A stretch of 51,865 nt of DNA from Anaerosomatales bacterium. GTDB taxonomy: Bacteria; Actinomycetota; Coriobacteriia; Anaerosomatales; SLCP01. Where the stretch lies: contig JARGFT010000007.1 of assembly GCA_029210645.1 (NCBI GenBank), positions 3,432 through 55,296 of the forward strand, read 5' to 3'. The position numbers were made by a program, and so were the translations under genes. This document shows positions 5,829-34,535 of this stretch, piece after piece; positions within the stretch are counted from its first letter, which is position 1, and each line of letters starts with the position of its first letter. The notes beneath the pieces are model-generated. The model did no database searches and was not told where the DNA came from. It worked only from the letters and a program-made list of their open reading frames with translations.

Positions 5829-6872
5829 TCATCCCCTCACGGACTCGACGAAGTACAGTGCGAAGCCGGCGCCGGCAAGGGTTCCGGTCACGACCCAGAA
5901 GCGCACCATGACCTTCGTCTCGGACCAGCCCTTCATCTCGAAGTGGTGGTGGATCGGCGCCATCCGGAAGATGCGCTTCCCGGTGAGCTTGAACGACGCG
6001 ACCTGGAGTACCACCGACAGGGCCTCAACAACGTAGATGCCGCCGATGAGTGCGGCCAGCAGCTCCGTCTTGGTGATGACCGCCAGTCCGGCGATAGCAG
6101 CACCCAGACCGAGCGAACCGGTGTCGCCCATGAAGATATCGGCGGGATACGCGTTGTACCAGAGGAACCCGATGCAGGCCCCTGCGATGGCCGCGGCAAG
6201 CAGCGCGACGTCGAGGTTGTCCTGACGGAATCCGATACCCGCGTAGGCGAGCATGACGATCATCACGGTTCCCGCCGCCAGGCCGTCCAGACCGTCAGTC
6301 AGGTTCACGGCGTTCGAGAAGCTCAGGATGATGAAGAATACGAGTCCGAGGTAGAGCCAGGGCACGACGATCGCCACGCCTCCGACCCGAAAGACTGTCG
6401 TGATGGCTCCCATGTCGAGCATCAGCCCGGTAAGCGGCACCTCGACATCGGTCGACAGCCCCGCCCAGTTGACAGCCAGCACGCCGAACGCAAGCGCGAC
6501 CAGCGCCTGGCCGGCTATCTTCGCGCGCGGCGTCAGCCCCAGCGAGCGCTCGTGGACGACCTTCGCCCAGTCGTCGATGAATCCGAGAAGGCCGCAGGCA
6601 CCCGTCAAGGCGAGCACCAGCAGGCTTGTCCGCCCGAAACTACCGAGGAACACGTAGGTGCCTGCCACGACGAGCAGGATGAGTACTCCCCCCATCGTCG
6701 GGGTTCCCTGCTTGACGAGGTGTCCCTGTGGACCATCCGCCCTGACCTGCTGTCCGATGCTGCGGAATCGCAGGAGCCGGATCCAGAATGGAAGGAGCAC
6801 GATCGCCGCGACGATCGCGATGACGATCGCGACGAATACCTGATATGACGGGTACTGCGCCAGCCTAAACAC
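5829..6872 (-). CDS. mraY: Phospho-N-acetylmuramoyl-pentapeptide transferase MraY
   Basis: MraY transfers phospho-MurNAc-pentapeptide to undecaprenyl phosphate in the membrane, giving lipid I. The 347-aa polytopic protein has TPTMGG (residues 57-62), the GFIDDWAK aspartate pair, NLTDGLDGLA, FMGDTGSLGLG and the MraY-specific HHHFEMKG motif. These make it the true MraY, in contrast to the paralogue at 26723-27676. GTG start inside the end of murF (8-bp overlap), so translational coupling to murF is likely. Confidence 0.97.
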   Translation of the reverse strand: MFRLAQYPSYQVFVAIVIAIVAAIVLLPFWIRLLRFRSIGQQVRADGPQGHLVKQGTPTMGGVLILLVVAGTYVFLGSFGRTSLLVLALTGACGLLGFIDDWAKVVHERSLGLTPRAKIAGQALVALAFGVLAVNWAGLSTDVEVPLTGLMLDMGAITTVFRVGGVAIVVPWLYLGLVFFIILSFSNAVNLTDGLDGLAAGTVMIVMLAYAGIGFRQDNLDVALLAAAIAGACIGFLWYNAYPADIFMGDTGSLGLGAAIAGLAVITKTELLAALIGGIYVVEALSVVLQVASFKLTGKRIFRMAPIHHHFEMKGWSETKVMVRFWVVTGTLAGAGFALYFVESVRG

Positions 6873-22775: not shown

Positions 22776-23882
22776 TCAGCCATCCACCGGGAATCTCGAA
22801 TCTCCCGAGGCCACTCTCGCGCACGCCTCCCCCGCAGCGAACGCCGCGGCGAAGAATGCGGGGTCATCCCCGGGATCCCGGCCCATGGTCGAGACCCGAA
22901 CGCCCCTCATGTCGGGCGCCGGCGCGAAGCCCGAGCCGCACTCGATGCGCCGATGGCGCCGGAGCACTCCGGAGGTATCGAGCACGTCCGCGACCTCCGC
23001 GGCCTGAACGGCCGGCAGCAGCGGGACGGGGATCAGCGCGGGCGCCAGCGCGATGCGCGAGAGTGCGGTGAGCGTATGGTGGCTCACGACCCGGTGTCGT
23101 GGGCGCTCGTCCGAGAACGAGACCCGCAGCGTCGCCACGGGCGTTCCCCGGAGCGCTCCGACGGCGTTGATCGCCTCGCCCTGAGCGACACCACCGTGCC
23201 CGAACGGGGTCGCGGTCCCCACGACTCCCGGCCCGATCGCGACGATGGCGACATCAGCATTGGCGACGTGTCGGGCGGCCAGAAGCCCGGAGTGCGCGTT
23301 GACCGCCTCGTACTGGCCTCCGAACGCCTGCCCGCACGTGATCGTGGCATCGATAAGACCGGCCTCTACCGACGCACGGATGACTTCGGACAGCGCGAGC
23401 GGAAGTGCGGCGAAGTCGGTCATGACGTAGGCGACCGTGAGCGCAGGGTCGGCCTGCTTGACCGCTGCGGCGACGAGCGGGACCTGGCTGTGCAGCCCGC
23501 AGCAGGCCACCGGCATACCGCCGAGATCGTCTGCGGAGCGCATGGTCTCGTGATGGACACTCGACTGCTCCTCGACCGAGCAGACGTCGATCTGCAGGGG
23601 CGCGTAGCGCAGCTTCATGATGTGACCACCGGACGGTTCGTCGAGCGCGACCCCCTCGCCCTCCCCCACCCTGGCGACGACGAAGTGCAGCCCGCCGGTG
23701 CCGAGCCCGAGGTCGACGGCGGTGGTGTTGACCAGCACCCGGTCGCCCGCAAGACACGCTCCCGACAGCCGCGGATAGGCGACCGCAGGGCCTGCTGCAC
23801 CGTCGTCGAGGATGACTTCGAGCCGCTGAGCATCGCCGGTAGCCGGCAGAAGCCCGCTCACAGTCCCCCAGACGAGCCTCAT
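22776..23882 (-). CDS. DUF3866 family protein
   Basis: Soluble 368-aa protein matching the DUF3866 family of Firmicutes and Actinobacteria, recognised by [13 protein letters not shown] near residue 90, [22 protein letters not shown], and [26 protein letters not shown]. No signal peptide, membrane helix or catalytic triad is evident. Function is not established. The ATG start overlaps the M20 peptidase stop (ATGA), so the two are probably made together, downstream of pyrG. Confidence 0.85.
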
Positions 23883-25003
23883 CTCTGCGACCCCGCGAAT
23901 CGCGCGATCGAAGCGCTCACAAGGCGTGTCAGCGCTTCCAGCTCCGCAACGCTCAGGGTCTCGTCAGTGGAGTGTACCGAGCGCATACCGCACGAGAGCA
24001 CCACAGTGGGCGTGCCCCGCTCGGCGAAGATGCTTCCGTCGCTGCCGCCGCCGGTCGCAAAGAGGCGTGGTGTCACCCCGGCATCGGCACAGGCGTCACG
24101 CATGACAGCGATGGCGGCCGAGTCTTCAGGCGTGTGGAACGCTTCGTACTCCTTCGTCCAGACGACCTCCACCTCCCCGTCGAGCGAGGCCGCCGCATCC
24201 TTCATCGCCGCGTCCATCGCGCCGCGGACCTCGTCGATCCGGTTCGCGTCGAGCGAGCGGCACTCACCGGCCAGCGTGACGCGGGCCGGGACCACATTGG
24301 TGGCGGTTCCGCCCTCGATCGTCCCGACGTTGGCGGTGGTGTGCGCATCGAGACGGCCGAGCTGCATCGCATCGACAGCCCGGGCTGCCATCAGCAACGC
24401 GGAGCGACCCTGCTCGGGAGCAACGCCTGCATGCGAAGCGGCGCCCGTGAACGCCGCAGTGAACGTGTAGTGAGTCGGCGCACCGACCACGATCCCGCCG
24501 GGCTCGCCATCGGCATCAAGCACGAGACAGAGGTCGGCTGCGGCGTCCGCGGGCTCGAGTGCCTTTGCCCCCCTGAGTCCGCACTCCTCAGCAACCGTCA
24601 GGATCACGCGGACGTCCCCGCGCATGCTGCCCGCCTCTATCGTCCGGCGGACTCCCTCGAAGATCGCGGCGATGCCGGCCTTGTCATCGGCCCCGAGGAC
24701 CGTCTCTCCGGCCGAGGAGATGATCCCGTCGGTCACGACCGGCTCGACGCCGCGGCACGGCTCGACACAGTCGAGGTGAGCAGAGAGCAGCAACACGGGT
24801 GCCCCGGGTGCCGTTCCCGGCAGCTCCGCGATGAGGTTGCCCGTGTTCGAGCCGGTGAGAGCCGCGGATGCATCGAAACGCACCGAGAAACCCATCGCTT
24901 CGAGCTCCGCTGCACAGCGACCGGCGAGTGCCGCCTCCAACCCCGAGGGGCTGTCGATGCGCACGAGATCGATGAAGGTAGCGAGCAGCCGGTCCGTGCT
25001 CAT
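23879..25003 (-). CDS. M20-family metallopeptidase (PepT-like tripeptidase/deacylase)
   Basis: 374-aa di-zinc peptidase. Metal and catalytic residues follow the M20 pattern: H76-L-D78 (SAHLDCVEP), the bridging D106 of GADDKAG, the E139-E140 pair (VAEECG) and the C-terminal histidine of RSVHSTDE. A lid/dimerisation domain lies between (THYTFTAAFTGAASHAGVAPEQGRSAL). The form is closest to tripeptidase T-like enzymes of Gram-positive bacteria. Exact substrate is unknown. ATG start 4 nt after the pyrG stop; the end overlaps the DUF3866 gene. Confidence 0.9.
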   Translation of the reverse strand: MSTDRLLATFIDLVRIDSPSGLEAALAGRCAAELEAMGFSVRFDASAALTGSNTGNLIAELPGTAPGAPVLLLSAHLDCVEPCRGVEPVVTDGIISSAGETVLGADDKAGIAAIFEGVRRTIEAGSMRGDVRVILTVAEECGLRGAKALEPADAAADLCLVLDADGEPGGIVVGAPTHYTFTAAFTGAASHAGVAPEQGRSALLMAARAVDAMQLGRLDAHTTANVGTIEGGTATNVVPARVTLAGECRSLDANRIDEVRGAMDAAMKDAAASLDGEVEVVWTKEYEAFHTPEDSAAIAVMRDACADAGVTPRLFATGGGSDGSIFAERGTPTVVLSCGMRSVHSTDETLSVAELEALTRLVSASIARFAGSQR

Positions 25004-26722: not shown

Positions 26723-27676
26723 TCACTCCTCCTCGGGGGTCCTTCCCCACCTGTCCGCCGCCGCGAGCCAGCCCGTTCGTTCGATGACCGACGAAAACGA
26801 GACGCGCTCGGAGATAAGGTTCAGGCCGAAGAGCACCACCGCGGCGACCACCGCACCCGCGAACGGGAGCGCTGAGACCAGCAGCAGCCCGACGAGCATC
26901 CCGAATGCGTTCGCCCCGGCATCGCCGAGCATGCCCGTCTCGCCGAGATCGTAGCGCCACACAGCCACGACCGGTCCGAGGGCGATCAGCAGTACGAGAA
27001 GGCCATCGAACAGAGCGCTCGCCACCGGGAGTCCGTCATCGACACGAATCAGGGACCAGACACCCATGAGGACCGCGATAACGGCGAGGAGCGAGTACGC
27101 CTTGAGCGCACGTCCCGGGCGCAGGTCGAAAAGGTTGACCGTGTTGGCCGCCAGCCCGATCACGAGCACGGCCACGCCATAGTGCACCGCCGTGCGCATC
27201 GTCAGGCCTTGCCAGACCAGTGCCGACGGCGCCGCGCCGAGCAATGCGAGCAGCCCGATACCGAAGAGCTTGATCGCACCGGTGGTGAGCTGACCGTGTC
27301 GCAACGCCGAGAGGTGTCCCCGGAAGCCCTTGTGCCCCGCCGTGCCGAAGGCGTCGTCGATGAGCCCGAGCGCGAATGCTCCGGCCACGAGCGGTACCGC
27401 AACGACGATCTCGAACCAGAGCGACGAAGTGTACTCGTGCGGCAGGACGAGCGCCAACGCCACCACCTGATGCATGCCGACCCCGGCGGCCCAGAGGACC
27501 CACACGACACCGAGGCCGAGCGGCACCTGTCGTCCCCGGTAGTTGCGAACGGTGCGACCACTCGCGGCAAGCGAGGGCGCCAGCATGCGCATCCCGACCC
27601 ACGGCAGCAGGACTGCGGCGAGGAGGATTGCGAACAGTCCCGCGAGGTGCCATCCCAGTTCCGGGGCGCCCGGCAC
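26723..27676 (-). CDS. MraY/WecA-like membrane sugar-phosphate transferase, divergent
   Basis: Polytopic 317-aa protein, about nine to ten helices, of the polyprenyl-phosphate N-acetylhexosamine-1-phosphate transferase superfamily. Superfamily motifs are present in order: NYRGRQVPLGLG (45-56, counterpart of the TPTMGG region), GLIDDAFG (104-111, the Asp pair), NTVNLFDLRPGRA (178-190) and GDAGANAFG (251-259). The normal NxxNxxDGxDGL motif is replaced by NLFDLRPGRA and the MraY HHH motif is absent, so this is not a second MraY. Donor substrate is unknown. The GTG overlaps the stop of the upstream gene (TAGTG) and is preceded by GGGAGGGGAGG, indicating tight coupling to the pseudo-phosphatase gene. 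Confidence 0.75.
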   Translation of the reverse strand: MPGAPELGWHLAGLFAILLAAVLLPWVGMRMLAPSLAASGRTVRNYRGRQVPLGLGVVWVLWAAGVGMHQVVALALVLPHEYTSSLWFEIVVAVPLVAGAFALGLIDDAFGTAGHKGFRGHLSALRHGQLTTGAIKLFGIGLLALLGAAPSALVWQGLTMRTAVHYGVAVLVIGLAANTVNLFDLRPGRALKAYSLLAVIAVLMGVWSLIRVDDGLPVASALFDGLLVLLIALGPVVAVWRYDLGETGMLGDAGANAFGMLVGLLLVSALPFAGAVVAAVVLFGLNLISERVSFSSVIERTGWLAAADRWGRTPEEE

Positions 27677-29982
27677 TAGCCCTCCCCTCCCTCAGCTACG
27701 GATCGCGGGAGCCTCCACAGCATGAGGTGCAGGATGCCCACGCCCACGTAGATCATGATGAGCGCCGGGATCACGATCCCCGAGTCCTCCGTGACGTAGG
27801 CGGCGAGGCCTCCGATCAGGCACGCAGCCATCCCCGCCGAGTACCCGGGATTCTCCCGAAGAGTCGCCGCAAAATCACCCTGCGGACGCCAGCGCATGAA
27901 GCCGAGGAAGGCCAGCACGGCTATGAGCAGGTACGACCAGTTGGTCCGCGTGAGCACCCTGACGTTGGTCTCGATCTTCCGCACGGCGATCAGCCACAGC
28001 TCGGAGACCCCGCCCCGCGCCATGCTCGCCCACGCCCGCGCGAGATGCGATTGTGAACCGGTATCCGCCCGCACGTCGATGAAGGAGAAGACCCCTATCA
28101 GCAGCACCATCACCACCACGGAGCCGCTGACGATGCGCCAGTCGACCTTGACCCCGTTGTAGATGACCCACATCGCCCCGAAACCGACGACGCCCCAGAT
28201 CGCGACGGCCACGTTCGCGCCGAGGTTGGGCGCCGCTCCGATCCAGGTCACCGCCAGGCCGAGCAGCGGGATTCCCCACAGCCCCGCATGTCGCACCCAG
28301 TGCGCGTCGCGATACTCGTCGAGCAGCATCGCCAGCCCGATGACAGCCGCGCCGAAGATCAGTGCGGCCCCCTCGTTGCCCAAACCGTAGTAGCGGGCAG
28401 CGAGTAGCGGCGAGTAGCCGAGAAAGCTCGTGAACGAGAGTGGTGCACCCAGGAGCTGGTCCACACCGATAACGAGCACCGCCAGCAGGCTCAGGGCGAC
28501 CACGGGAATGCGCGGCCCCGCGAACCATTCGAGCACAAGGCCGATCGCCCAGAGTATCGCCAGGGCGATGAAGAAGTTCACGAGCGCGGCTGCCGATGTG
28601 GCCGGACGCGGATCGACCAGGAACATGAGCAGCGAGGCGGGAGGCACCGCGAGCGCAAGCATCATGAGCCTGCGACCGTACACAGAGACCAGCCTCACGG
28701 TCCGCTCGTTCCAGAGGCGCGCACGCAGAAGTGCGACCGTGCAGAGCAGCAGCAGGATCGTGGTGGCAGCAATGAAGCCGTTGATGACGGGCGGCTTAGC
28801 CGTGTCGACCGCGATCGCAGTCCTGTTCGCTGCGTCGAGTGTCGCGATCCGATCGTCGACCGCGCTCTGGGCACCATCGGAGACCATGCGGTTCCCGAGC
28901 ACCTCGACCGGCACGTCGATCCCGAGCTCGCCGAGTACCGTTGCCGCGACGTCGAGGTTGGTGACAAGCCCGTTGCGCTGGGTCGAGGAGGAGCTAAGAT
29001 ACCCCGACCAGCCGGGCCCGTGGATGACTGCCGGGCCGAGCCCCGTGACCGTGCCGGCCTCACGGGCCAGCACCTGCGCAACGACCATGAGGACACCGTC
29101 GTCGGGCAGCGAATCCGCCGCCATCTTCACGACGCGGTCGAGCGTGCTCACCGCAGCGAGCCGGTGTGCCTCCGCAACGGCCGGGGTCACGTCCACCGCC
29201 ACCTCGCGCGCGCGGTGCGGATCTCCGGCGTCGAGCACGATGAAGGAGGGGCCCTCCTGCTCCCCGGCGGCCTCGACAACCCGCTGGTACTCGGCAGCAA
29301 AGGCCTCGAGATCGGTGGCGAAGCCGAATGGGACATCGGGATCGTTAACGAGCAGCTCGCTCGAAACGTTGCCGAGCGGCACCCGGCCGTCCTCGTCCAT
29401 CGCGACCACCGCTGCAGGCCGGTTGCGCCACAATCCGCGTACCTCGTAGCCGGAGTCGGAGTTGCCGACGGCGGCCGTGATGCCACCGGCATCGGCAACA
29501 GCCTGCCCGAGCGTTCCGGGCCTCACCGCAAGCGTGGCAGCGCGCTCGTTGAAGCGCGCCGTCCTCGGCAGGCCGAGGAAGACGACGTCGTATCCGGTCG
29601 CATCGACGCCGGTCATCCGCGTGAACGCGTCGAGGGCCGTGCCACCCTCGTAGTACTCGTCGACACTGTGAGGCTGGGGTGCCACCGGATCGGCGGCCGC
29701 CCACGAGCCGGCAGAGAAGGTAAGTGCTCCCTGCAACGGGGAATCGGTGGTCGCGATGCGGCTCCTGCTGCGCAGGTTGATGTTGCCGACGGCACCCTCT
29801 TCGGCAAGCGCGTATATCGCGGGTGCCACCTCCGGGTCGATATCACTCCATTGGAGGTAGGGAGCGAGGACGAGCACGACACGTGACGAGGAAGCCTCTG
29901 TACCGGAGGCGGGGGTGGGAGCGGTGTATCCCCCGGCGAGCGCCAGGGTGCAGACCAGAGCAAGTATGGCGATGCGCTTCAT
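27676..29982 (-). CDS. Large membrane protein with degenerate alkaline-phosphatase-like extracytoplasmic domain
   Basis: 768-aa protein: signal sequence (1-27), an extracytoplasmic domain to about residue 400, then ten or more membrane helices to the end. The outer domain follows the layout of the alkaline-phosphatase/sulfatase fold: VVLVLAP (35-41), DSPLQGALTFSAG (80-92), VLMVVAQ (297-303) and LVTNLDVAATVL (339-350). The metal Asp of the first strand, the Thr/Ser nucleophile site and the usual SDHG are not recognisable, so it is probably catalytically dead or very divergent. ATG chosen for the signal peptide; a 38-residue upstream extension is rejected. Coupled to the MraY-like gene; divergent from murJ. 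Function unknown. Confidence 0.75.
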   Translation of the reverse strand: MKRIAILALVCTLALAGGYTAPTPASGTEASSSRVVLVLAPYLQWSDIDPEVAPAIYALAEEGAVGNINLRSRSRIATTDSPLQGALTFSAGSWAAADPVAPQPHSVDEYYEGGTALDAFTRMTGVDATGYDVVFLGLPRTARFNERAATLAVRPGTLGQAVADAGGITAAVGNSDSGYEVRGLWRNRPAAVVAMDEDGRVPLGNVSSELLVNDPDVPFGFATDLEAFAAEYQRVVEAAGEQEGPSFIVLDAGDPHRAREVAVDVTPAVAEAHRLAAVSTLDRVVKMAADSLPDDGVLMVVAQVLAREAGTVTGLGPAVIHGPGWSGYLSSSSTQRNGLVTNLDVAATVLGELGIDVPVEVLGNRMVSDGAQSAVDDRIATLDAANRTAIAVDTAKPPVINGFIAATTILLLLCTVALLRARLWNERTVRLVSVYGRRLMMLALAVPPASLLMFLVDPRPATSAAALVNFFIALAILWAIGLVLEWFAGPRIPVVALSLLAVLVIGVDQLLGAPLSFTSFLGYSPLLAARYYGLGNEGAALIFGAAVIGLAMLLDEYRDAHWVRHAGLWGIPLLGLAVTWIGAAPNLGANVAVAIWGVVGFGAMWVIYNGVKVDWRIVSGSVVVMVLLIGVFSFIDVRADTGSQSHLARAWASMARGGVSELWLIAVRKIETNVRVLTRTNWSYLLIAVLAFLGFMRWRPQGDFAATLRENPGYSAGMAACLIGGLAAYVTEDSGIVIPALIMIYVGVGILHLMLWRLPRSVAEGGEG

Positions 29983-30099
29983 GCAGACATCCCTTGCGAC
30001 GCGAACGGCGCGCTGAGTCCGGTGGTGGTTCGGGCGGGGGCTTGGTGCAGGGTCGAGGCCGGTACGACCGGCCGACCGGGCGTCTGGCGCCCGCATGCA

Positions 30100-30105
30100 A
30101 GTATA
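30100..30105 (-). promoter_or_regulatory. Candidate -10 for the pseudo-phosphatase/MraY-like pair
   Basis: Minus-strand TATACT, 117 bp before the ATG at 29982; no clear -35. The intergenic stretch 29983-30297 (315 bp) holds this element, a 14-bp tandem repeat and the murJ promoter and ribosome site, and no supportable gene. Confidence 0.35.
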
Positions 30106-30128
30106 GCCGAACGCGCACGGCGGGCATG

Positions 30129-30156
30129 ACGTCCGTAACGGAACGTCCGTAACGGA
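30129..30156. repeat. Two perfect tandem copies of a 14-bp unit containing CCGTAACGG
   Basis: ACGTCCGTAACGGA occurs twice head to tail (30129-30142, 30143-30156). Each copy contains the near-palindrome CCGT-A-ACGG. It lies between two divergent promoters, so it may be a two-site operator; a chance duplication is the alternative. Confidence 0.7.
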
Positions 30157-30202
30157 ACGGTCACCGCACCGCGGATACGACGTGACTACGCTGCGGAAGG
30201 AT

Positions 30203-30208
30203 TACAAT
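30203..30208 (+). promoter_or_regulatory. murJ: Candidate -10 for murJ
   Basis: TACAAT, one mismatch from consensus, 54 bp before the AUC candidate start and 90 bp before the ATG at 30298. The -35 is poor (GTGACT at 15 bp). Confidence 0.4.
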
Positions 30209-30297
30209 ACTCCGGAGCGCTGCGGGATCGTGACGAGGGATGCCGTGCGGGAGGAGGACCCATCAGCACACCGGCGATAGCCCGTTCCACTGCCATC

Positions 30298-31866
30298 ATG
30301 TCGATCTCGACCGCGCTCTCACGTATCACGGGGTTCGTGCGCACGTGGGCGACCGCGTATGCGCTCGGCGTTACGGCGATGGCGGCTTCCTACAGCGTCG
30401 CGAACAACATCCCCAACATGATCTACGAGTTGGTGGCGGGTGGCGTCATAAGCTCGCTCTTCATTCCCGTCTTCATGCAGCGACGCAAGGAAGCGGGCGA
30501 GGAGGACGCGTGGCGCTACGCGAGCTCGCTCTTCAACCTTACCGTCGTGTCGCTCGGCATCGTCTCGATCCTCGCCACTATCTTCGCCGCCGAGGTGGTC
30601 CGCACGCAGACCTTCCGGATCACACCGGACGAGGCGCGCGTGGCCACCGAGTTCTTCCGCTTCTTCGCAGTACAGATCGTTGCGTACGGCGCCGGGGCAG
30701 TCATCAGCGGGCTCCTGAACGCCCAGCGCCGGTTCCTCTGGCCTGCTCTCGGCCCGGTCTTCAACAACCTGGTGGTCATCGTCACGCTGCTCGGCTTCTA
30801 CGTGCCTCTCTACGGTCACAGCCCCGACCTGGCGTTTGTCGTGCTCGCTGCCGGGACCTCCCTCGGGGTCTTCGCGATGTTCCTCGTCCAGCTGCCGAGT
30901 CTCATCAAGTCCGGGGTACGCTACACCGCGACCATCGACCTGCGTCATCCGGGGATGCGCGCGATGGCCCGCATGGCGGTGCCGACCGTGATCTACGTCG
31001 TGACGAACATCGTCGCGGTCTCCTTCAGGAATGCATACGCGCTGGAGACCTCGCTCGAGGGTCCTGCAACACTCCTCTACGCCTGGATGTTCTACCAGCT
31101 GCCCTACGGCATCTTTGCCGTGGCGCTCGCGACGGCGATCTTCACCGAGCTCTCGGATGCCGCCGGACAGAAGGACTGGGCGGCCTTCAAGTACCAGTTC
31201 GCTCGCGGATTCCGGGCCACGGCGCTCCTGATCGTACCGATGGCTGCGATGCTCATCGCTCTCAGCCGTCCCCTCATCACTCTGTACCGCGCCGGCCGAT
31301 TCACCGCCGAGGACGTGCCTGCCGTGGCCGAGGTCTTGGTCTGGTGGGCCGCGGGGCTCTTCTTCTTCGCGTCCTTCATGTACGTGCTCAAGACCTTCTA
31401 CTCGATGCAGGACACGCGCACTCCGATGCTCACGAACCTCGGACTCACCGTCATCCAGGTCGCACTGTATGCGATCCTGACGACCGGCATCGCCGGCTGG
31501 GCGGGCGTCGGGCTCAAGGGGATCCCCATCGCGGACGGCGTGTTCTACCTGCTGAACCTGACCGCACTCGCGTTGATACTCCGCACCCGGATCGGGGGCT
31601 ACGATATACGGGGGATCGCATCGCTCGTCGCCCGCGTACTCTTCGCTGCCGCTCTGGGCGGAGTGAGCGCATGGAGCGTGGCACACCTCGTGGGAGCGTC
31701 CGGGGCACCGGGAGGCGCACTGCTTCAGGTGATCGCAGGCGGCATCGTCGGCTTGGCCGTGAGCTACGGCCTGGCGTGGCTGATGGGCGTCAGTGAGGTC
31801 GCAGCCGGAGTCGCCATGGCTCGTCGGGTGCTCGGACGGATGGCCGGACGGAAGAATCGCCCATGA
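30298..31866 (+). CDS. murJ: Lipid II flippase MurJ (MviN family)
   Basis: MurJ moves lipid II across the cytoplasmic membrane. The 522-aa frame has about 14 helices and the family features LSRITGFVRTWATAYALGVT (first helix region), SYSVANNIPNMIYELVAGGVISSLFIPVF and YSMQDTRTPM. The first ATG at 30298 has no ribosome site. Twelve codons upstream, in frame, an ATC at 30262 is preceded by GGGAGG at 7-nt spacing and would add a typical hydrophobic lead (ISTPAIARSTAI). No ATG, GTG or TTG lies in frame between. The true start is therefore uncertain. It overlaps the following GT2 gene by 4 bp, on a plus-strand island among minus-strand genes. Confidence 0.93.
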   Translation: MSISTALSRITGFVRTWATAYALGVTAMAASYSVANNIPNMIYELVAGGVISSLFIPVFMQRRKEAGEEDAWRYASSLFNLTVVSLGIVSILATIFAAEVVRTQTFRITPDEARVATEFFRFFAVQIVAYGAGAVISGLLNAQRRFLWPALGPVFNNLVVIVTLLGFYVPLYGHSPDLAFVVLAAGTSLGVFAMFLVQLPSLIKSGVRYTATIDLRHPGMRAMARMAVPTVIYVVTNIVAVSFRNAYALETSLEGPATLLYAWMFYQLPYGIFAVALATAIFTELSDAAGQKDWAAFKYQFARGFRATALLIVPMAAMLIALSRPLITLYRAGRFTAEDVPAVAEVLVWWAAGLFFFASFMYVLKTFYSMQDTRTPMLTNLGLTVIQVALYAILTTGIAGWAGVGLKGIPIADGVFYLLNLTALALILRTRIGGYDIRGIASLVARVLFAAALGGVSAWSVAHLVGASGAPGGALLQVIAGGIVGLAVSYGLAWLMGVSEVAAGVAMARRVLGRMAGRKNRP

Positions 31867-32543
31867 GAACAGTCGCGCTGATCCCGGCCCACAATGAAGC
31901 CGAGCGCATCGCGGCAACGCTGGAGGCGCTCGGCTCGGTTGCAAACATCGATCACGTGATCGTTGTCGACGATGCGTCCAGCGACGGTACGGCGGAGGTA
32001 GCTCGCTCCTGCGGGGCGACCGTCGTGCGACTCGAGCATAACCTCGGCAAGGGTGGCGCCCTGGAAGCCGGCGTGGAGCACGCGCAGGACCCGGACGTAC
32101 TCCTGCTGCTCGACGCCGACCTCGCCGAGACTGCCGCGCAGGCGGGCGCGCTTCTCTGCCCCGTTCGCGAAGGCATCGCCGACATGAGCATCGCCTGCTT
32201 TCCGAGACCCGCCGGCAAGGCGGGGTTCGGGCTGGTGAAGGGCCTCGCCCGGTGGGGCATACGCCGGCTGGGAGGGCCGTTCGATGCCAGAGCTCCACTT
32301 TCGGGTCAGCGAGCACTGAACCGCAGCGCGCTCGCGGCCTGCCGACCCTTCGAATCCGGCTACGGCGTGGAAGTCGCCCTCACCATACGCGCACTGAGAG
32401 CCGGTCTGAGACTCGTTGAGGTCCCGACCACGATGGCGCACGCCGCTACCGGTCGTGACGTCGCGGGCTTCGTGCACCGCGGGCGACAGTTCGGGCACGT
32501 GGCGGCCGCATTGCTCCGCCTCGCCGTCGAGCGCACCCGCTGA
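31863..32543 (+). CDS. Family 2 glycosyltransferase
   Basis: Soluble 226-aa GT-A fold enzyme with the N-terminal strand VALIPAHNEAERIAATLEAL, VVDDASSDGTAEVA, NLGKGGALEAG and the metal-binding LLLLDADLAE, followed by an acceptor-side segment (LSGQRALNRSAL, GVEVALTIRALRAGLRLVEVPTTMAH). The pattern resembles polyprenyl-phosphate or glucosyl-phosphoglycerate type GT2 enzymes. Neither donor nor acceptor can be named. ATG start overlaps the murJ stop (ATGA). It converges with the SteB-like gene with only 6 bp between, and no terminator is seen there. Confidence 0.85.
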   Translation: MRTVALIPAHNEAERIAATLEALGSVANIDHVIVVDDASSDGTAEVARSCGATVVRLEHNLGKGGALEAGVEHAQDPDVLLLLDADLAETAAQAGALLCPVREGIADMSIACFPRPAGKAGFGLVKGLARWGIRRLGGPFDARAPLSGQRALNRSALAACRPFESGYGVEVALTIRALRAGLRLVEVPTTMAHAATGRDVAGFVHRGRQFGHVAAALLRLAVERTR

Positions 32544-32549
32544 CCGTAC

Positions 32550-33386
32550 CTACCGGGGCCAGGGAGCCTGGGCGCCGTCGCCGATGCCGTAGTAGCCCTC
32601 AGCCCTTCCCGCGAGAATCCAGGTCAGTGAGTATGCTCCCTCGGGCGTGCCGATGTGGTCGACGCCGGACAGACCTGACTCGAGTGCAGCGGCCGCAACC
32701 CCGGTGGTCTGACTCTGCGCCTCGATCGCGCACGCTGCAGCGCCGCCATCGGCAAGCGAGCGGGCGAGCGCGAGTGCCCCCTCGTCGGGCACGCCGTTGA
32801 AGGAGGCCAGGACGGCCACGGCATCGATCGCCGCTCCCCCGTCGCCGTCCACGCGCAGAACGCCCGCTTCAGCCAGCGCGATGGTGAGCGGCCTGGACTC
32901 GGCGGGCAGCAGCCACTCGGCAGCCAGCCCGTCAGCGATCTCGTCGAGCAGCGCGTCGGGCTCGACAGGGCCGATCGTCTCCGTGACCACGGAGGAGACT
33001 GATGGGTCGCCCGCGCCGAGCAGCGGTGCCGAGAGAAGCAGCGTAACCGGGGTACCCCCGGCGCTCCTGATGGCATCGGCGGTACTCCCCAGGCCGTCAG
33101 CCCTCCCGGTGCTCGCCACGACGAGCACCGTGCGGCCCTCCAGCGAGCCCTCCACAGCAGCCTCGAGGAGAGCGTCGACGAGCTCTTCCCGTGAGGTGAG
33201 CGACTCCCGCAACTCGTTGTTCGCGGTGTTGAGCGTCCGGAACTCCTCCTGCAGACTCTCGATGATGCTCTCCTTCTGACGGTCCAGCGTCCCACGCTCG
33301 ACCACGATCGTTCCCAGGAGCAGCCCGATGGAAAGCGAGAGGAACACCGCGACCAGCGAGGTGATGTGATACCGCAGGTTGTACAT
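32550..33386 (-). CDS. steB: SteB/MctB-like single-pass membrane protein (copper transporter family)
   Basis: 278-aa protein with a membrane helix at about residues 8-27 (HITSLVAVFLSLSIGLLLGTIVVERG), a coiled coil at about 28-68 and an outer Ala/Gly-rich alpha/beta domain. This N-terminus and architecture define the MctB family (named for a mycobacterial protein tied to copper homeostasis). In corynebacteria the recN-steA-steB order is linked to daughter-cell separation. Position directly after steA supports the SteB role; copper transport is not supported by any Cys or His motif seen here. Confidence 0.82.
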   Translation of the reverse strand: MYNLRYHITSLVAVFLSLSIGLLLGTIVVERGTLDRQKESIIESLQEEFRTLNTANNELRESLTSREELVDALLEAAVEGSLEGRTVLVVASTGRADGLGSTADAIRSAGGTPVTLLLSAPLLGAGDPSVSSVVTETIGPVEPDALLDEIADGLAAEWLLPAESRPLTIALAEAGVLRVDGDGGAAIDAVAVLASFNGVPDEGALALARSLADGGAAACAIEAQSQTTGVAAAALESGLSGVDHIGTPEGAYSLTWILAGRAEGYYGIGDGAQAPWPR

Positions 33387-33413
33387 ACTCGGACTCCCTC
33401 GACAGGGTTTGCG

Positions 33414-34535
33414 TCAGATACCGATCCATGCGCGCATGCGCAACAGCACCAGCTCGACCATGGACCGTGTAGCCGGTGAGATGGTGATGATAACCGAGAT
33501 CGCCACGAGAGCCGCACCCGCAACGAGCATCAGGTCGACGGGGCGCACCGACGTCCGGTAAAGCTTGCTCACGCCCTTGGCGTCAACCAGTTTCGGACCG
33601 ACCTTCAGGCGCACGAGGAAGGTGGATGCCATCCCTTTGCGTCCCTTGTCGAGGTACTCAACGAGGTTCGCGTGCGTGCCCACCGCGACGATCAGGTCGG
33701 CCCCGGACTCGTAGGCGAGCAGCAGAGCCAAGTCTTCGCTCGTCGCGCCGATGGACCACGCGATCGCTGTTTGGCCGAGTCCGGTGATTCGCTCCATGGC
33801 CGGACACGTGCCGTCAGGGTAGGCGTGCGCTATGAGTTCCGCGCCGCTCGTGAGAGCCGCATCGCTCACCGAGTCCATGTCTCCGACGATGATGTCAGGG
33901 GCAAAGCCCGCCTCACGTATCGCGTCCGCTCCGCCGTCAACGCCGATCAGGACCGGGCGCATCTCCCGGATGTAGGGCGACAGCGTACGCAGGTCCTCGC
34001 GGTAGTCGTACCCGCGTACCACGACGAGCACGTGGCGCCCGCTCATCACCGTCCGCGTCTGCGGGACGCCCGCGCCCTCGGTCAGCAGAGCCTTCTCCCG
34101 CTCGAGGAACTCCAGGGTGTTGCGGGCGAAACGATCGAGCTGATCGCCTAGTCCTGCTTTGGCAGCCTCCATCGCCGCCTCCACGGAACTCACCGTCAGA
34201 CGCTCTCCGGTCGCCACGACACGGCCGGCGAGAAGCAGCTCCTCGCCGGCCACCTCTACCACGTCGCCTTCCGTGACGCGTTCGAAGACCTCGGGGCCGA
34301 CTGCATCGAGGATCTGCACGCCGGCACGGGCGAGCAGCAGCGGTCCCACGTTGGGGTAGGCACCGGAGATCGAGCGTGACGCATTGACCACGACTTCGAC
34401 TCCGGTGTCGAGCAGCCCTTCAGCGCTGACGCGGTCCATGTCGACGTGATCGATGATGGCGATGTCGTCACGGCCAAGCCGCTTGACGAGGTCCTTCGTG
34501 CGCTTGTCCAGACGTGCGGCTCCCAGGTATCTCAT
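33414..34535 (-). CDS. steA: Putative cytokinetic ring protein SteA
   Basis: 373-aa protein. It has an N-terminal region RYLGAARLDKRTKDLVKRL, and a thiamine-pyrophosphokinase-like nucleotide-binding domain with VDGGADA (199-205) and GDMDSV (218-223). A C-terminal membrane segment (about 345-362) and a short basic tail follow. In corynebacteria SteA is recruited to the septum with SteB and affects cell separation; it is not a thiamine enzyme there. ATG start overlaps the recN stop (ATGA), and steB follows after 27 bp. Confidence 0.88.
   Translation of the reverse strand: MRYLGAARLDKRTKDLVKRLGRDDIAIIDHVDMDRVSAEGLLDTGVEVVVNASRSISGAYPNVGPLLLARAGVQILDAVGPEVFERVTEGDVVEVAGEELLLAGRVVATGERLTVSSVEAAMEAAKAGLGDQLDRFARNTLEFLEREKALLTEGAGVPQTRTVMSGRHVLVVVRGYDYREDLRTLSPYIREMRPVLIGVDGGADAIREAGFAPDIIVGDMDSVSDAALTSGAELIAHAYPDGTCPAMERITGLGQTAIAWSIGATSEDLALLLAYESGADLIVAVGTHANLVEYLDKGRKGMASTFLVRLKVGPKLVDAKGVSKLYRTSVRPVDLMLVAGAALVAISVIITISPATRSMVELVLLRMRAWIGI

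Follow-up and report, generated by a model that had tools for sequence, protein, structure and literature searches.

MraY, WecA and DPAGT1, polyprenyl-phosphate N-acetylhexosamine-1-phosphate transferases, form one superfamily (PF00953), and the second motif of MraY contributes to its uridine pocket. YejM/PbgA, LtaS and, by topology, eukaryotic PIG-N are membrane proteins with alkaline-phosphatase-fold ectodomains. SteA and SteB regulate a septal peptidoglycan hydrolase in cell separation, their septal localization and hydrolase regulation being known only from Corynebacterineae (PMC6705760, PMC12977500). SteA is a thiamin-pyrophosphokinase relative repurposed as a regulator, and in C. glutamicum its nucleotide pocket is stabilized by GDP or UDP, the ligand itself being unknown (PMC12977500). 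We describe here a locus in which steA and steB lie beside a divergent member of the MraY superfamily, referred to hereafter as T, and a membrane protein, referred to as P. The window (the whole stretch of DNA analyzed, 51,865 nucleotides of an Anaerosomatales genome) carries these genes together with murJ and a glycosyltransferase gene as follows.

26723-27676, minus strand: T, 317 aa with a GTG start, a divergent MraY/WecA-fold polyprenyl-phosphate transferase-like protein
27676-29982, minus strand: P, a 768-aa membrane protein (the ORF is open to 30096, 806 aa)
30298-31866, plus strand: murJ, lipid II flippase family (TIGR01695, 277 bits versus a cut-off of 235.55)
31863-32543, plus strand: GT2 glycosyltransferase, 226 aa (PF00535, 73.5 bits versus a cut-off of 23.3)
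32550-33386, minus strand: steB, MctB family (PF11382, E 3.2e-30), adjacent to steA
33414-34535, minus strand: steA (NF040608, 480 bits versus a cut-off of 150; the C-terminal domain model, SteA-like_C, is also matched)

Open reading frames confirm these six genes, with the coordinates and orientations given in the initial annotation, and curated models confirm SteA, SteB, MurJ and GT2: P and T are divergent from murJ and GT2, which converge on steB and steA, and T and P precede pyrG on the minus strand. The P stop and the GTG start of T overlap by one base (TAGTG) and murJ and GT2 overlap in an ATGA, hence each pair is likely to be translationally coupled; the proposed coupling of an MraY/WecA-like protein with a 768-aa membrane protein is thereby upheld, the fold of T being that of MraY/DPAGT1 (see below). 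The P start was placed at the methionine at 29982, which gives the 768-aa form and fits a signal-peptide-like N-terminus. An Rfam search of the sequence returned no structured RNA, no sigma-70 sites were found, terminator-like sites were no more frequent than in shuffled sequence, and PADLOC found no defense role. The canonical mraY lies in the same window (about 5829-6872), adjoining murF in a dcw-type cluster.

T co-occurs near-obligately with SteAB, and is linked to it, in two phyla. Of 396 Actinomycetota genomes, 137 have T, 150 have a SteA that passes the model cut-off and 127 have the two together; the corresponding counts for 249 genomes of Bacillota (the phylum of Clostridioides, T threshold E below 1e-30) are 160, 161 and 159, and the Fisher tests applied to this co-occurrence, which ignore phylogeny, serve as description. 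Where T and SteA share a contig they lie within 16 kb of one another in 113/114 actinomycetotal cases and within 3.9 kb in 141/141 from Bacillota. The T-only Actinomycetota comprise seven genomes from one family of Streptomyces-like genome size and three others. The SteA-only genomes mostly belong to a single family, f45 (probably Mycobacteriaceae-like), in which T was not detected; the Actinomycetota search used a single query sequence, and some SteA-only genomes may therefore hide a distant T. Within Coriobacteriales, SteA is present in 8/9 genomes checked, several of which carry it away from the T locus.

The gene order around T is recurrent. All forty first-round loci place T between recN/steAB and pyrG, and since almost all of the loci inspected show some version of the arrangement, it is not the product of chance. 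Ninety-one loci with wide flanks include steA in 78/91 and at least one of GT2, murJ and P in 85/91, in the company of the housekeeping genes recN (70/91), pyrG (67/91) and tlyA (64/91), with DUF3866 present in 46/91. Three layouts occur: steA-steB, a reversed GT2-murJ and then P-T-pyrG in Coriobacteriia; steA-steB-T-murJ-pyrG in many other Actinomycetota, with GT4 after murJ where read and sometimes P; and steA-steB-GT2-T-(pepT)-DUF3866 in Bacillota, where the two loci read lie directly downstream of spoIVB and spo0A (a steAB-spo0A link is also noted in PMC12977500). The constant core is SteA-SteB-T, to which one or more of GT2, MurJ, GT4 and P are usually added. The initial annotation had named a survey of neighborhoods across Actinomycetota and Firmicutes, for linkage of the transferase, the phosphatase-like protein, GT2 and steAB, as the check that could overturn its proposal. 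The survey does not refute it: T proves nearly inseparable from SteAB (127/137 and 159/160 of the genomes with T) rather than lying mostly away from it, although P is an optional component of the locus, often with a truncated ectodomain. We found no description of the T-SteAB link in the open-access literature searched; what is new is that T forms a variant within the MraY superfamily and that SteAB is its near-obligate partner.

In the window, genes for a DUF3866 protein and a peptidase-like protein (22776-23882 and 23879-25003) adjoin pyrG, and the same string of genes accompanies T in Actinomycetota and Bacillota. Three Streptomyces-like loci (L107, L108 and L109) have no steAB, and their T retains the acidic residues described below. 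A tree of T separates Bacillota roughly from Actinomycetota; two MAGs named Actinobacteria and Firmicutes (L210 and L196) have a T that groups with the opposite phylum, and are either mislabeled or the product of transfer.

The reading that we prefer, and to which we give about even credence, is that these genes specify a pathway for a lipid-linked glycan, one that works in partnership with SteAB, the regulator of cell separation. Its central component would be T. The protein of the window matches no Pfam or NCBIfam model, and PF00953 is matched by 26/57 of its relatives (best 1.3e-12). When the sequences of the PDB are searched with a profile built from 30 relatives of T, MraY is retrieved (E 4.7e-7), and hhalign aligns T with the MraY and the WecA of its own genome at about 95% probability each. 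The AlphaFold2 model (pLDDT 92.9) finds MraY or DPAGT1 in all of the top Foldseek matches (TM about 0.5), and these are its only convincing fold matches. T therefore has a divergent form of the MraY/WecA/DPAGT1 fold and, given that the genome encodes both an MraY and a WecA of its own, is a third member of the superfamily in this organism. The following motifs distinguish it.

27353-27358, minus strand: catalytic-type DD pair of T (D107 D108), invariant in 57 relatives and aligned to the GLIDD of WecA
27110-27145, minus strand: T signature NxxNLxDLRPGR (N178-R189), replacing the NxxNxxDGxDGL of MraY/WecA
26915-26926, minus strand: GDxG motif (G251 D252 G254), invariant and aligned to WecA and MraY
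26741-26812, minus strand: C-terminal motif SERVSFSxVIExxxxLxxxDxxGR, standing where MraY has its HHH loop and last helix

Eight residues (D107, D108, N178, N181, D184, G251, D252 and G254) are invariant across the 57 relatives of T. The signature reads NLLDLRPGRAxK in place of NxxDGxDGL, such that the first aspartate is retained (D184) and the second is replaced by P187. Given that the second motif of MraY forms part of the uridine pocket, this alteration suggests, at the level of sequence, a different donor or a changed chemistry for T. Neither an HHH (or equivalent) loop nor the last transmembrane helix was found in T, which ends in SERVSFS...LDxxGR; with that loop and the second aspartate both gone, T may lack activity or work by a different chemistry. 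The SERVSFS motif is itself missing from two aligned Streptomyces-like T proteins (L107 and L108), both from loci that have no steAB.

These same features open the way to an alternative in which T is no biosynthetic enzyme at all, and is instead a relative of MraY, silent or altered in catalysis, that serves SteAB as its regulator or its partner in the membrane, for instance through binding of the lipid carrier or of precursors attached to it. Besides the loss of the second motif aspartate and the HHH loop, such a role would suit the absence of SERVSFS from T proteins whose loci have no steAB, the degenerate phosphatase that forms the ectodomain of P, and the precedent of SteA, itself a thiamin-pyrophosphokinase relative turned to regulation (PMC12977500). 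We nevertheless consider it unlikely, as the four active-site acidic positions (D107, D108, D184 and D252) are invariant in 57 relatives from two phyla, GT2 or GT4 accompanies T, often with a flippase paralogue as well, and in the one Streptomyces-like locus read, which has no SteAB, T is still accompanied by GT4.

P has no match in Pfam or NCBIfam, and its AlphaFold2 model (pLDDT 84.7) consists of an N-terminal ectodomain followed by many helices, which divide the gene as follows.

28873-29892, minus strand: ectodomain of P (roughly residues 31-370), with the fold of alkaline phosphatases and sulfatases but no conservation of the metal-ligand motifs
27679-28860, minus strand: P membrane part (about residues 375-768), conserved polar residues at predicted outer helix ends

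For the ectodomain, a fold search with the model returns an arylsulfatase (E 3.7e-5) and YejM (target TM up to 0.51), and the predicted structure is that of a degenerate alkaline-phosphatase/sulfatase fold. Inspection of the alignment for metal ligands and nucleophile found no DHG or final His motif, and the first-strand aspartate of the phosphatase fold is kept in some relatives only (e.g., L155, L182 and L190). The phosphatase-like outer domain first proposed for P is hence right as to fold, whereas the metal-ligand motifs of a phosphatase are not conserved. As the ectodomain is mostly missing in several relatives (L121, L122, L131 and the MurJ-fused forms described below), it is not the core of P. 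The membrane part, which had no match in profile or fold searches, conserves D508, R530, GxGNE at 533-537, P585, G588, D636, H646 and D733-S734-G735; predicted helices put these residues at outer ends (assuming that the ectodomain is outside), an arrangement that, in the model, fits an extracytoplasmic transferase site. Our impression is of a topology resembling that of an O-antigen ligase or a GPI ethanolamine-phosphate transferase. Two groups of P are set apart: in the Tepidanaerobacter group (L155:4472-6718 and L182:4804-6987) the gene lies upstream of steA, is transcribed away from it and retains the first-strand aspartate, and in the Actinoplanes group (L195 and L208) P keeps R530-G533-G535, without the NE and DSG residues, and possibly has a divergent function.

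The GT2 protein has an invariant DxD (D84, D86), and its profile matches glucosyl-3-phosphoglycerate synthase (GpgS, 1e-20) and dolichol-phosphate mannose synthase (DPMS, 3e-18) about equally; searched against the NCBIfam equivalogs it misses every cut-off by far (AglJ 81 of 325, PpgS 53 of 370). The actinomycete loci read have a GT4 gene adjoining murJ, and in one Streptomyces-like locus lacking steAB (L108) it is T that adjoins GT4.

The flippase tells a different story in the two parts of Actinomycetota. This genome has no strong MurJ other than the one at the locus, as is the case in most of the class, and the locus MurJ must therefore also serve as the ordinary lipid II flippase; it is not dedicated to the locus here. 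Other Actinomycetes with a locus MurJ carry it in most cases as a divergent second copy, and in a FastTree phylogeny (midpoint rooted, the argument resting on the separation of clades rather than on the root) these copies form a clade of their own apart from the canonical MurJ of the same genomes, while the locus MurJ of Coriobacteriia groups with canonical MurJs. A MurJ-family flippase thus appears, from this tree, to have joined the T neighborhood at least twice independently, which inherited gene order alone would not lead one to expect. Gene fusions tie the components further. In five Coriobacteriales MAGs (L133, L136, L138, L141 and L143) P and MurJ form one ORF of about 1,180-1,490 aa, in which the P ectodomain is truncated and MurJ full-length, and in two related genomes GT2 is fused to the N-terminus of P (L092:10274-13495 and L103:6485-9409). 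The fusions and the two recruitments of MurJ point to one working unit. The first of the GT2-P genomes (L092) has a second copy of P besides the fusion. Apparent T-MurJ fusions in several loci (e.g., the 803-aa ORF of L095) were rejected as long open frames in GC-rich DNA that overlap a neighbor.

The sole, canonical-type MurJ of the Coriobacteriia locus, together with the fusion of P to MurJ in five MAGs, could also be read to mean that the module acts on ordinary lipid II, altering it or directing it to the synthesis of septal wall, and makes no separate polymer. We think this improbable: the locus of other Actinomycetes has its own divergent MurJ with the canonical MurJ elsewhere in the genome, which indicates a substrate other than lipid II. 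Least likely among the rivals is that steAB, T, GT2 and murJ merely persist inside an ancient housekeeping block (tlyA-recN ... pyrG-DUF3866) with no common function, for although recN, pyrG and tlyA do share these loci and the T tree roughly follows the two phyla, T and SteA tend to be present or absent together in the 645 genomes, and genomes in which the two are unlinked still keep SteA. The GT2-P and P-MurJ fusions and the separate recruitments of MurJ also speak against it.

Returning to the lipid-linked glycan pathway paired with SteAB, the order of events may be pictured as follows. T would move a sugar phosphate from a nucleotide donor, perhaps one other than the standard UDP-sugars, to polyprenyl phosphate at the inner face of the membrane; a sugar would then be added or supplied by GT2, or by GT4 in other Actinomycetes; export of the lipid-linked product would fall to the MurJ-family flippase; and in genomes that have P, this protein would receive, polymerize or transfer the product outside. 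The scheme of loading, flipping and handing over put forward in the initial annotation is partly supported: it agrees with the combination of T, GT2/GT4, MurJ and P, with the fusions and with the recruitments of MurJ, though MurJ is not dedicated to the pathway in this genome and action at the division site is conjectural. What the analysis establishes is the identity of the genes, the folds, the retained residues, the linkage, the fusions and the MurJ paralogue clade; the activity of T, its donor and product, the part played by P and the signal to SteA are inferred from these. SteA could read a nucleotide or nucleotide-sugar of the T/GT pathway and SteB would relay its state to the septal peptidoglycan hydrolase, such that cells separate only once the wall glycan is in order. 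A signal for SteA that originates in glycan synthesis is attractive because its pocket is stabilized by GDP or UDP while its ligand is unknown (PMC12977500). On another contig of this genome, some 12 kb separate its single LCP (LytR-CpsA-Psr) match from a WecA homologue (G000:C2:778-1230 and C2:12500-12958); the two perhaps mark a separate wall-polymer locus.

A wider evolutionary reading is offered tentatively, as possible rather than probable. SteAB would be the sensor-output arm of an undescribed lipid-linked glycan pathway of Actinomycetota and Bacillota, with SteA sensing a nucleotide or nucleotide-sugar that T and GT2/GT4 use or release, and licensing septal wall cleavage; Corynebacterineae would have kept the switch and lost the pathway, and Streptomyces-like bacteria would have lost the switch but retained T, which has GT4 beside it in the locus read.

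The near-obligate co-inheritance with SteA in two phyla of what is likely a nucleotide-sugar-using enzyme pair makes that pair a direct candidate for the source of the SteA signal. The link between T and SteAB also suggests a tie between cell separation and a dedicated wall glycan, or an undescribed lipid-linked sugar pathway, and T represents an uncharacterized branch, with an altered substrate pocket, of a superfamily that is a major antibiotic target.

Set against the known systems, T shares with MraY, WecA and DPAGT1 the fold, the DD pair, NxxNLxD and GDxG, and differs from them in bearing NLLDLRPGRAxK for NxxDGxDGL, in having no HHH loop and in stopping before the last helix. The locus MurJ passes the TIGR01695 cut-off for the lipid II flippase and is the sole strong copy here, whereas the locus of other Actinomycetes carries a divergent paralogue clade distinct from canonical MurJ. 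GT2 is related by profile to the polyprenyl/dolichyl-phosphate sugar synthases (AglJ, PpgS, DPMS) and to GpgS, with which it shares the DxD, but falls below the NCBIfam equivalog cut-offs of AglJ and PpgS. P, like YejM/PbgA, presents an alkaline-phosphatase-fold ectodomain on a membrane protein; unlike YejM/PbgA, LtaS and PIG-N, its ectodomain precedes the membrane part, the metal-ligand motifs are missing and the membrane part is unmatched. Finally, the same SteA equivalog and the same MctB/SteB family, encoded by adjacent genes, make up the SteA/SteB complex of Corynebacterineae (PMC6705760, PMC12977500), yet the work on steAB there (in C. glutamicum and M. tuberculosis) has been done without a T gene, and here it stands with T, GT2, MurJ and P.
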